Positions 27,316 to 32,708 of a stretch of DNA of 64,000 nt are shown here, in pieces. The notes below the pieces were generated by a model. It was not told the origin of the DNA. It was given only the letters and a program-made list of their open reading frames with translations, and searched no databases. The translations under genes were made by a program, and so were the position numbers. The stretch is from the NCBI RefSeq assembly GCF_013170705.1, contig NZ_CP033334.1, forward strand, positions 5,743,501 through 5,807,500. Reading direction: 5' to 3'. Source of the DNA: Mesorhizobium loti. GTDB taxonomy: Bacteria; Pseudomonadota; Alphaproteobacteria; Rhizobiales; Rhizobiaceae. Positions within the stretch are counted from its first letter, which is position 1. Each line of letters begins with the position of its first letter.

Positions 27316-27418
27316 AATCTTCGCCCAAACCGCCGCAACCAACATGATTTTGCGCGGAACTGGATGACTGCGGACGCGATCCGCTTCAAGGTCGCGGTGC
27401 GGTCAGGGGGCCGCTCCG

Positions 27419-27613
27419 ATGTCCGATTCGCCGATCCTGTTCGTGCGCAAGGTCGCCAGTCGCCTTGGCGGCACGGTCATGCTCGAAGACATGAACCTTG
27501 TGATCGAGGGCGGCTCGATCCACGCGCTGGTCGGCGAAAGCGGCGCCGGCAAGTCAACGCTGACAAAGGTGCTGACGGGCCGAGCCCCTTCGCCGATCAT
27601 CCGGCTGCCCTGA
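27419..27613 (+). pseudogene. Truncated sugar ABC transporter ATPase
   Basis: The reading frame begins like a sugar ABC ATPase, with ILFVRKVASRLGGTVMLEDM and an intact Walker A GESGAGKSTLTKVLTG. It then runs into an unrelated ten-residue tail and a stop at residue 65, with no Q loop, signature or Walker B. A full ATPase of the same kind lies downstream at 29850. The gene seems to have lost its 3' part by deletion, leaving a remnant in front of the binding protein gene. Confidence 0.75.
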
Positions 27614-27807
27614 AAAATCCTCCCAACTGATGCAATCTGATGGGTCCGCTGATGGCGGCGCGTCAGGCGCCGACTACATCTGCAGATGGAGGCTTGCCAT
27701 TCGTCGAAAAAGGGAATGCTCTTAGGCATCCGAGCGGCGCTGGCAAAAGACGCAATCCGGCCGAGCCGGAACAAGGGACGGATCATCTTCAACCGGGAGG
27801 AAATCAA

Positions 27808-28743
27808 ATGCTGACAAGACTGAGACTTGTGCTCTACGGCCTGCTGGTCGCGCTGACGGTCATTCCCGCCGCGGCGCAGGCCAAGACCTTCTACTGGATT
27901 TCACATGGCGGCCCGGCCGACCCGGTCTGGACCTACTTCCTGGCCGGTGCCAAGCAATGGGCCAAGGACACCGGCAATACCGTCAACACCTCGTTCCACA
28001 ATGGCGATGTCGCCTCCCAGCAGGAAGCGGTTCGCGCCGCCCTCTCGGCCAAGGCCGACGGTATCGTCACCACCAGCCCCGATCCGGGCAGCCTTGTCGA
28101 GATCGTCAAGGAAGCCCGCGCCGCCAACATCCCGATCATCAACTTCAACACGCCCGATCCCAAGGCCAATTTCAATGCCTATGTCGGCGGCGACAACGTC
28201 ACCTTCGGCAAGCATTGGGCGCAGTATCTGGTCGACAAGGGCCTGGTGAAGAAGGGCGACTTCGTCTGGATGCCGGTCGAGATTCCCGGCGCCACCTACG
28301 GCGTCCAGGAAGAAGAAGGCATCAAGAGCGTGTTCGGACCGCTCGGCATCACCTATGAAGTGACCGAAGCGACGCTCGATCAGGCCGAGGTGATCAACCG
28401 CATGGTCGACTACCTCACCGCCCACAAAGGCAAGGTCAACGCCATCATCGGCCTCGGCGACCTCGTCACCGGCTCGATCAAGCGGGTGTTCGACCAGGTC
28501 GGCGTCAAGCCGGGCGAAATCCCGGTCGTCGGCTGGGGCAATTCGCTCGACACCACGCAGGAAGTGCTGAACGGCTATGTCAATGCCGGCCAGTGGCAGG
28601 ACCCGCAGGCGACCAGCTATGTCGCGCTGTCGCTCGCCAACATGGCCGCGTCAGGCATTCCTCCGGGCTTCAACGTCATCACCGGCGCGCTCTACGAAAA
28701 GGACACGGCCGGCGTCTACGACAAGATCCTGTCCGGCAAATAA
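27808..28743 (+). CDS. Sugar ABC transporter substrate-binding protein
   Basis: This is a periplasmic receptor of the ribose/rhamnose type (periplasmic-binding protein 4 fold). The 311-residue product has a Sec signal peptide (1-26, cut at AQA-KT), a mature start of FYWISHGGPADPVW, and the family turns DGIVTTSPDPGSL and IGLGDLVTGSIKR. CGGGAGGAAATCAA directly precedes the ATG, which fixes the start. The ligand is unknown. Confidence 0.9.
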   Translation: MLTRLRLVLYGLLVALTVIPAAAQAKTFYWISHGGPADPVWTYFLAGAKQWAKDTGNTVNTSFHNGDVASQQEAVRAALSAKADGIVTTSPDPGSLVEIVKEARAANIPIINFNTPDPKANFNAYVGGDNVTFGKHWAQYLVDKGLVKKGDFVWMPVEIPGATYGVQEEEGIKSVFGPLGITYEVTEATLDQAEVINRMVDYLTAHKGKVNAIIGLGDLVTGSIKRVFDQVGVKPGEIPVVGWGNSLDTTQEVLNGYVNAGQWQDPQATSYVALSLANMAASGIPPGFNVITGALYEKDTAGVYDKILSGK

Positions 28744-30778: not shown

Positions 30779-31801
30779 ATGAAGGCCACCGTCTCCGACA
30801 TCGCCAGGAACTGCGGACTCTCGACCGCGACGGTCGACAGGGTGCTCAACAACAGGCCAGGTGCCAGTGCAGCCAACCGGCAGCGCGTGATGGAGGCGGC
30901 CAAGCAGCTTGGCTATTTGCCGGTCGCGGACCAGGTGACGCTTCCCTCGAAGCCTGCAAATCTCGAATTTTTCCTGCCGATCGGCAGCAATGCCTTCATG
31001 CAGGATCTGGCAAGACACATCGAGGACTATGCATCACGCCTGCCGCTGGTCGCCTCCTGCCGGATCCACAACCTCGCCGGCATCGCGCCGAATGCGCTGC
31101 AGGGAGCCGTCGAAAACCTGTCGCTGAGGGCCAATGGCGTTGGTGTCATCGCCATCGACCATCCGCGAACCCGCAACATCCTGCGCGACATTGTCGACAC
31201 CGGCATCCGCCTGGTGACGCTGGTGTCCGATATTCCGGCCGCTCCCCGCTCGGCCTATGTCGGCATCGACAACCGCGTGGCGGGACGGACGGCCGCGCTC
31301 TTGATGGGACGCTTCCTCGGCGGCCGCGAGGGCCATCTTGCGATGGTCGTCGGCTCGCGCTCCTATCGCGGACATGAGGAACGTGAAATGGGCTTTCGCT
31401 CCGTGCTTGGCGAGGAATTTCCCAACCTCACCGTAACCAGTGCCGTCGAGATCAACGATGAGCCGGATGCCAGCTATGCCGAAACCATGAAGGCGCTGCA
31501 CAACGAACCGGAACTGCTCGGCATTTATTGTGTCGGGGCCGGGCGCTCCGGCGTTGCAAAAGCCATCCGGGAAGCCAGGCCCAACCGCAAGCCGGTCTTC
31601 ATCTGCCACGACCTGACGAGAGAAACGCGCGGCTACCTCGTCGACGACCTCGCCGATGTCGTCATCGACCAGAACGCCAGGCTGATCGCCGAACAGTCGG
31701 TCATTCGCCTGCTGGGCTCCATCGCCTCATCGGCGCCCTATCTGACGCGAAAATTCATCGAGCCACGACTGATCTTCAGGGAAAACGTTCCGGTGCAATG
31801 A
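30779..31801 (+). CDS. LacI family transcriptional regulator
   Basis: This 340-residue regulator has the LacI helix-turn-helix at residues 2-25 (VSDIARNCGLSTATVDRVLN), where the usual VSRVLN is VDRVLN. The hinge and a periplasmic-binding-protein-like effector domain (about 60-335) follow. It is on the same strand 137 bases after the sugar ABC operon, so that operon and perhaps the FAH gene are the likely targets. Confidence 0.9.
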   Translation: MKATVSDIARNCGLSTATVDRVLNNRPGASAANRQRVMEAAKQLGYLPVADQVTLPSKPANLEFFLPIGSNAFMQDLARHIEDYASRLPLVASCRIHNLAGIAPNALQGAVENLSLRANGVGVIAIDHPRTRNILRDIVDTGIRLVTLVSDIPAAPRSAYVGIDNRVAGRTAALLMGRFLGGREGHLAMVVGSRSYRGHEEREMGFRSVLGEEFPNLTVTSAVEINDEPDASYAETMKALHNEPELLGIYCVGAGRSGVAKAIREARPNRKPVFICHDLTRETRGYLVDDLADVVIDQNARLIAEQSVIRLLGSIASSAPYLTRKFIEPRLIFRENVPVQ

Positions 31802-31900
31802 TACCGTGTTTCCCGGCTTTTGCGGACGACACGGCAAATCTGCACAGCAGCTATGCACAATTCATTGTTGCCGAATCATTGGGCAACTCATACTTTCTGG

Positions 31901-32018
31901 TTGTCGGCCATCTACTCCTCCCAGATGCGATGCCGATGCTGAATGGGGTGCACCTCCTCCCGCATCACATTCGAAATCGAGCCCGCTGCCACCTCCTCCC
32001 GGCAGCGGGCTTTTTTCG
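31901..32018 (+). ncRNA. Alpha-r14/NfeR1-like small RNA with three anti-Shine-Dalgarno loops
   Basis: About 118 bases fold into three hairpins, each with an A(C)CUCCUCCC loop. Hairpin 1 is CATCT-loop-AGATG (31909-31927). Hairpin 2 is GGTGC-loop-GCATC (31947-31966). Hairpin 3 is GCCCGCTGCC-loop-GGCAGCGGGC (31981-32010), followed by TTTTTT. The loop motif is complementary to Shine-Dalgarno sequences. This is the layout of the alpha-r14 family (NfeR1 in Sinorhizobium), which represses translation of many transporter mRNAs. A CATACT box at 31889-31894 would put the 5' end near 31901. Confidence 0.85.
31981..32016 (+). terminator. Rho-independent terminator of the small RNA
   Basis: A perfect ten-base stem, GCCCGCTGCC with GGCAGCGGGC, is followed by six T. 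The loop holds the third CCTCCTCCC motif, so the terminator is also a functional arm of the RNA. Confidence 0.92.
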
Positions 32019-32114: not shown

Positions 32115-32708
32115 TCAACCAGCGGCAGCGCCCCGGAAGGAAACGACCAGCCCTTCGGCCATGCGCACGAACTGGGTGCTCGGACCTTCGGCCCCTACCG
32201 TCTGCACGCTGACGCGCGCACCCTCGAACAGAAGCGACAGCGTGTCGGCGAGCAGTTCGGCCTGACCAATGCCGGCATCCCGGCATAACGTCACGAGGCG
32301 CTCGCGCTGAGCCTCCTTGAGTTCCTTAATCACCAGCCTGGCCGGATGGTCCGGCTCGGTCAGCTCCGCGGCGGCATTGGCCATATCGCAGCCGCGACCA
32401 TCAGCATTGAGCATGGCAGCGGCCTTGCGAACCCAGGCATGCAGTTGCGCAAGCTTGTCGCCAGGGAACTCGGCCTCGAAAGTGTCCCACATGGCGCCCG
32501 CCTTGGCCGCGTTGGCGCGCAGGCACTCGACGATCAGCTCGTCCTTGGATTCGAAGTGACGATAGAGCGTCATCTTGTTCGTGCCGGCAGCTTCGGTAAT
32601 GGCGTCGACGCCGACGCCCTTGATGCCGTGCTTGTGGAACATGTCGCGTGCCGTCTCCAGGATTCGATCCCGGGGACGAGAGCGCTCCACGACGCCGTCT
32701 GTCATCAT
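32115..32708 (-). CDS. TetR family transcriptional regulator
   Basis: This 197-residue repressor has the N-terminal helix-turn-helix (ILETARDMFHKHGIKGVGVD and AAGTNKMTLYRHFESKDEL, residues 16-59) and a helical ligand domain with a single CDM motif (GRGCDMANAAAEL). It is divergent from the RND pump genes and two tandem dyads lie between them, so it very probably represses the pump and itself. Confidence 0.9.
   Translation of the reverse strand: MMTDGVVERSRPRDRILETARDMFHKHGIKGVGVDAITEAAGTNKMTLYRHFESKDELIVECLRANAAKAGAMWDTFEAEFPGDKLAQLHAWVRKAAAMLNADGRGCDMANAAAELTEPDHPARLVIKELKEAQRERLVTLCRDAGIGQAELLADTLSLLFEGARVSVQTVGAEGPSTQFVRMAEGLVVSFRGAAAG

Follow-up and report, generated by a model that had tools for sequence, protein, structure and literature searches.

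An ar14 small RNA gene in the 64,000-nucleotide stretch of Mesorhizobium DNA analysed here (the window) has a predicted sigma-70-type promoter of its own, in which two TGC-N11-GCA dyads are conserved at a distance of 28 bp. The RNA itself is no surprise, being another copy of an already described family; ar14, NfeR1 and the CCUCCUCCC family have all been published. The conserved pair of matching promoter sites looks new and suggests, from its sequence, control by a regulator. The features of the locus are as follows.

27808..28743, + strand: sugar ABC transporter binding protein (Pfam PF13407) with Shine-Dalgarno GGGAGGA, candidate local target
30779..31801, + strand: LacI-family regulator with Peripla_BP_4 domain (Pfam PF00356, PF13407), upstream neighbour
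31841..31857, + strand: box A, dyad TGCACAGCAGCTATGCA (TGC-N11-GCA)
31868..31886, + strand: box B, dyad TTGCCGAATCATTGGGCAA, with TGC-N11-GCA at 31869-31885, overlying the -35
31868..31873, + strand: predicted -35 TTGCCG, followed by a 17-nt spacer
31891..31896, + strand: predicted -10 TACTTT (from the sequence), predicted start near 31903
31899..32016, + strand: ar14 small RNA (RF02344), Rfam gathering match, fold z -4.96, predicted 5' end about 31899-31903
31903..31937, + strand: hairpin 1, loop CUCCUCCC at 31915-31922 (from the fold)
31941..31972, + strand: hairpin 2, loop CCUCCUCCC at 31953-31961 (from the fold)
31979..32016, + strand: hairpin 3 and intrinsic terminator, loop CCUCCUCCC at 31992-32000, then six T (from the fold)
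32115..32708, - strand: TetR-family regulator (Pfam PF00440), downstream neighbour on the strand opposite to the RNA

An ar14 RNA with three conserved loops

A covariance search with Rfam gave a match to ar14 (RF02344) at 31899-32016 on the + strand, covering the full model (1-123) with 74.7 bits against a gathering cut-off of 58.8. This bears out the alpha-r14 assignment of the preliminary description, whose sequence and coordinates (31901..32018) were correct. It was the sole Rfam family above its cut-off in the window; the matches to CcsR1 (RF02791, 42.0 bits with a cut-off of 65.3), MIR1437 and BASRCI27 were all below theirs and membership of these families was rejected. Folded alone, 31901-32018 formed three hairpins (-49.9 kcal/mol) with the anti-Shine-Dalgarno (aSD) motif unpaired in every loop, as had been proposed, and none of 200 dinucleotide shuffles folded as well (z = -4.96). 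The core motifs are CTCCTCCC in loop 1 (31915) and CCTCCTCCC in loops 2 and 3 (31953 and 31992); loop 1 of the window copy is CTCCTCCC without the first C, as in 37 of the 59 sequences aligned below. The third stem runs into TTTTTT, forming the Rho-independent terminator that characterizes ar14, in agreement with the earlier reading of this hairpin as a terminator with six T. With both strands counted, the window has a single place with three CTCCTCCC inside 100 nt, and 100 dinucleotide shuffles gave none.

To follow the locus in related genomes, 80 loci with a related LacI gene were fetched; these are the matches listed, among which the window's own genome may be absent. The nearest LacI relatives among them were from Mesorhizobium, with 98% identity to M. 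huakuii NBRC 15243 and two others. The RNA was located downstream of LacI in all 75 listed loci with a LacI at least 87% identical, directly in 71 and at about 2.8 kb in four (L029, L031, L042 and L056). Loss of the RNA in these four was rejected, as RNA and promoter sit further on, parted from LacI by other DNA and kept together with all three motifs. Conservation of the loops was found in the form of three exact CTCCTCCC in 74 of the 75 close loci listed (70 of the 71 with the RNA directly 3' of LacI); the one exception, L052, has two, and its RNA with the altered loop 1 still scores 73.0 bits for ar14. At L083-L086 and L088, where LacI is 57-70% identical, no ar14 match above the cut-off was present in the fetched stretch.

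Covariation was assessed on 59 distinct sequences: that of the window plus those of 58 loci out of the 71, with 12 duplicates and L052 left out. Since this set had been picked for exactly three CTCCTCCC, loop identity was counted on all 75 close loci instead. Standard pairs occupied 97.3% of the pairing cells, compared with at most 46.6% for slid structures. The proportion of paired cells was 95.8% and 88.0% for helices 1 and 2, which together make up hairpin 1, 99.0% for helix 3 (hairpin 2) and 99.9% for helix 4 (hairpin 3). Changes on both sides of a pair were found in 30 cells versus 11.5 in shuffles and in five pairs versus 2.1, three of them in helix 3, while further pair types were only weakly in excess (20 versus 18.9). 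Fifteen rows, forming one clade, have a shorter first stem and break three pairs of the assumed structure. The three aSD loops are conserved genus-wide and their stems covary.

Two dyads in a fixed register

The promoter was aligned for 72 loci, the window and 71 others. TTGCCG-N17-TA is present in all 72 and the fuller core TTGCCG-N17-TA...T in only 42, the -10 box being weak. The mean share of the commonest letter was 0.94 at 31834-31857 and 0.96 at 31868-31885, compared with 0.59 for the intergenic sequence on the 5' side and 0.50 for the 3' flank. Dyad A was found in 71 loci, dyad B in 72 and both in 71, with a start-to-start distance of 28 bp in 70. TGC-N11-GCA is short and common, with 20 occurrences in the window; its 28-bp tandem is expected 0.004 times there at equal base frequencies and was found once, at boxes A and B.

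Box B has no second match without mismatch in the whole genome and one with a single mismatch (C1:2564756). When up to two mismatches were allowed, the pattern returned 19 rows on the two strands, this one included, versus six for the reversed control, so a small regulon read through box B is possible. At three mismatches, the only matches in the window were at 27948 and 60896, a number within chance.

In other genera, the 28-bp dyad pair was observed in seven of 29 distinct ar14 loci examined (31 rows with two repeats; L217 had no usable row), spread over five genera: L190 and L191; L199; L251; L212 and L213; and L224. This count allows GCG for the last GCA, which was needed in two loci. A search with the pattern of box B had led to L190 and L191, and L249-L251 had been chosen for a match extending into the promoter; the RNA part alone was enough to find three of the seven, L212, L213 and L224. 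Between 5 (L251) and 11 (L190) of the 11 inner letters of box B are common with the window, and the neighbour gene in L190 encodes a TRAP-type permease (PF06808), unlike at the window locus. The bare tandem pattern is not proof, because two further fetched loci of the window's own genome also match, L231 and the one preceding the ar14 copy at 2681623 (L006); both were taken as chance, showing another register or no adjoining ar14.

Candidate regulators of the promoter

A LysR activator of the LsrB/VtlR type may act on this promoter, recognizing box A and activating from box B, which overlies the -35; we lean towards this candidate over NtrC and regard it as a serious possibility, if short of probable. 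That one regulator would bind both dyads is the least certain part. On the - strand, box A (31856-31844, GCATAGCTGCTGT) is an exact fit to GCAT-N3-TG-N3-T, the VtlR/LsrB consensus given in PMC7486931 and PMC8844928. All seven letters are present in 40 of the 72 loci and six in 30, L037 scoring 0 through a 1-nt shift. With the predicted start at 31903 the site lies at -59 to -47, close to the LsrB/VtlR-type site at -61 to -49 described for PabcR1 (PMC8844928), and for S. meliloti LsrB is described as activating nfeR1 and NtrC as repressing it (PMC10746234). Exact matches to the consensus are not rare, with 11 in the window versus 7.8 expected. Box A of L190, L191, L212 and L213, from other genera, departs from the LsrB/VtlR letters and keeps TGC-N11-GCA, which favours a dyad-reading factor such as NtrC.

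If the dyads of the same RNA were NtrC sites, dimers at box A and over the -35 would repress it, as NtrC does on nfeR1 in S. meliloti. For PnfeR1, TGC-N11-GCA is given as the NtrC motif (PMC10746234), and it is this form that the two boxes have in common, in five other genera too; the position of box B suits a repressor such as NtrC, and two matches to the motif lie upstream of glnK in the same genome. Nevertheless we consider this reading rather unlikely. The S. meliloti motif is located at -116 to -101, where none was found here, the only TGC-N11-GCA within 31701-31910 being at 31841 and 31869 (-62 and -34 from the predicted start). The centre of the NtrC motif is A/T-rich according to PMC10746234 and box A has no A/T-rich centre, and a motif this frequent in the window carries little weight.

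Control by the adjacent LacI-family protein via box B, in a local circuit of LacI, ABC operon and RNA, appears improbable. The LacI gene and the RNA are direct same-strand neighbours in 71 of the 80 related loci listed, but in the sister-genus genomes G098 and G193 box B is kept with the RNA downstream of a TRAP-type permease gene (called by Pfam DctM for G098 and by translation only for G193), and in the four loci with 2.8 kb of other DNA LacI is parted from promoter and RNA. As box B stays with the RNA beside other genes and lacks a second match without mismatch in the genome, LacI as cognate regulator was rejected as the main reading. The RNA lies on the same strand as the LacI gene, 97 nt past its stop, which could speak for a by-product of the LacI 3'-UTR or a plain array of terminators with no trans function; this is very improbable in view of its own conserved promoter, its conserved loops with covarying stems and a family with tested members.

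Related RNAs, further copies and candidate targets

The closest described system is NfeR1 (Smr14C2, SmelC397) of Sinorhizobium meliloti. It belongs to ar14 and has three redundant aSD loops (PMC10746234), and the species carries six ar14 copies (PMC7143759). The window copy resembles it in three CCUCCUCCC-loop hairpins, several copies per genome and a sigma-70-type promoter with upstream regulator sites, and because of the three redundant loops of NfeR1 an NfeR1-like mechanism is plausible by analogy. Orthology with NfeR1 itself is not supported by the sequence, because the NfeR1 sigma-70 signature is absent (no CTTAGAC in 31701-31910; TTGCCG-N17-TA versus CTTAGAC-N17-CTATAT in NfeR1) and the genome contains six ar14 copies. 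Other differences are the two dyads 28 bp apart near the core promoter and the LacI and TetR neighbours. The PnfeR1 core pattern was found in 0 of 199 genomes of the bacterial family, which left no letter comparison with an NfeR1 promoter.

The cuckoo family (SmelA075, SmelA099; PMC3927594) has the loop motif, hairpin modules and several copies in common with the window copy, which is a plain three-hairpin case. CcsR1-4 with CcaF1 (DUF1127) of Rhodobacter sphaeroides and the CIN1 locus share the aSD loops, but the window locus is flanked by LacI-type and TetR-type genes and has no DUF1127 gene. AbcR1/AbcR2 are similar in target type (ABC transport) and in an LsrB/VtlR-type site near -60 (PMC8844928), yet are another RNA than ar14. 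For Mesorhizobium small RNAs with anti-Shine-Dalgarno, a search of the open-access literature returned only the M. huakuii 7653R survey, whose table of 40 sRNA candidates has none labelled ar14; no paper joining Mesorhizobium sRNA or RNA-seq with ar14/alpha-r14 was found in that literature.

The six ar14 copies above the cut-off in the 6.87-Mb single-contig genome comprise, besides the window copy, a tandem of three at C1:4195832-4196306 and single copies at 2681623 and at 6454963, the latter 92% identical to the window copy across the RNA but with a different upstream sequence. The tandem trio, with nine aSD loops, directly follows two small DUF1127 genes (PF06568) in a CIN1-like locus, an arrangement named CIN1 in PMC10253847. 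Two weak ar14-like matches below the cut-off (C1:2127260-2127369 and 3605418-3605518, with 23.8 and 21.7 bits) hold one CTCCTCC each. In a sample of 61 Mesorhizobium genomes, ar14 matches were present in 61 and above the cut-off in 60, with 1-9 per genome and a median of five. Further ar14-like matches were seen on 14 Mesorhizobium plasmids (H1-H14), with no feature listed beneath them in records of which one is without any annotation and a gene table that holds no RNA genes. Four (H1-H4) reach across the promoter; in H1 (L194 3900-4250, plasmid pMc1284 of M. ciceri WSM1284) box A is intact and box B altered, and a short integrase gene is near.

Taken as a whole, the locus is probably an ar14 (cuckoo-family) gene with a sigma-70-type promoter and a terminator of its own, encoding a small RNA that would act in trans and, by analogy with its family, block Shine-Dalgarno (SD) sites. 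Each loop would pair with GGGAGGA-type SD stretches and thereby prevent translation of many mRNAs, among which ABC-transport genes would be prominent. Complementarity to SDs is to be expected of any aSD loop, a mimic of the 16S rRNA tail, and does not point to specific targets. The genome contains 53 CCTCCTCCC, 16 of them within ar14 loci, and the reversed control 48, giving no clear enrichment. Among perfect GGGAGGAGG sites outside ar14, six of 36 lie 1-6 nt before the start codon of a Pfam-supported gene: two ABC permeases, one ABC ATPase, an AMP-binding enzyme, a sigma-54 activator and a short-chain dehydrogenase. This is an after-the-fact count on a small sample (36 of 37 sites judged), the Pfam scan covering six SD-like sites picked by hand, with others set aside whose reading frames were short or whose TTG starts were distant. 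In the window, at least 7 of 52 genes have a run of at least six letters complementary to CCUCCUCCC before the start, a lower bound from a rough gene list without 27808.

The preliminary description had named binding proteins at 27808, 54700 and 63684 as possible targets by their ribosome sites. This held for the sugar-binding protein at 27808 with its GGGAGGA; the other two are no binding proteins, 54700 (GGGAGGA) being a short-chain dehydrogenase and 63684 (GGAGGA) a haem-dependent oxidative demethylase-like protein. The start of the 27808 gene has a GGGAGGA-type 7-nt run in all 70 mapped loci (of 80 listed), and its duplexes with the three loops reach -14.7 to -20.0 kcal/mol, whereas the LacI gene gave -5.4 to -12.6 and the ATPase gene -6.9 to -17.6. 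It is the best local target candidate in the window, which is not specific evidence: the 7-nt match proves little because it is kept in L029, L031, L042 and L056, where the RNA is displaced, as well as in L052 with its altered loop 1, and the conserved neighbour SD was dropped as target evidence. Just upstream, a short open frame at 27364-27640, between the FAA-hydrolase and binding-protein genes, looks by eye like an out-of-frame piece of an ABC ATPase.

Elsewhere in the genome (G000:C1:1188195-1188229; L189 1596-1630), a lone GC-rich hairpin whose loop carries CCTCCTCCC was observed right after amtB (PF00909). A blastn match reached it in 40 of the 61 genomes of the genus, and in the best 30 loci, own included, the motif is kept in 29 (not in L278), with stems that change in step, e.g. 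GGGGCC/GGCCCC and GGGACC/GGTCCC. It may be an anti-Shine-Dalgarno element of one hairpin that closes a nitrogen operon.

In Sinorhizobium, ar14 RNA is described as affecting nodulation and nitrogen control (PMC10746234, PMC7143759), and NfeR1 as silencing ntrB and two transporter mRNAs (PMC10746234). With a median of five copies per Mesorhizobium genome, the separate regulation of copies becomes a question, and the conserved two-site promoter, outlasting changes of neighbour, offers a direct handle on what switches the window copy. More speculatively, and with rather low confidence, the tandem dyads in their fixed 28-bp register could be an operator dedicated to one branch of ar14 in several genera, at which one regulator would recruit and gate RNA polymerase at the -35, so that a nitrogen/redox regulator would switch a global aSD RNA through an architecture unlike that of PnfeR1. 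If so, and together with the amtB hairpin, aSD loops would be a general output of nitrogen control in Mesorhizobium.
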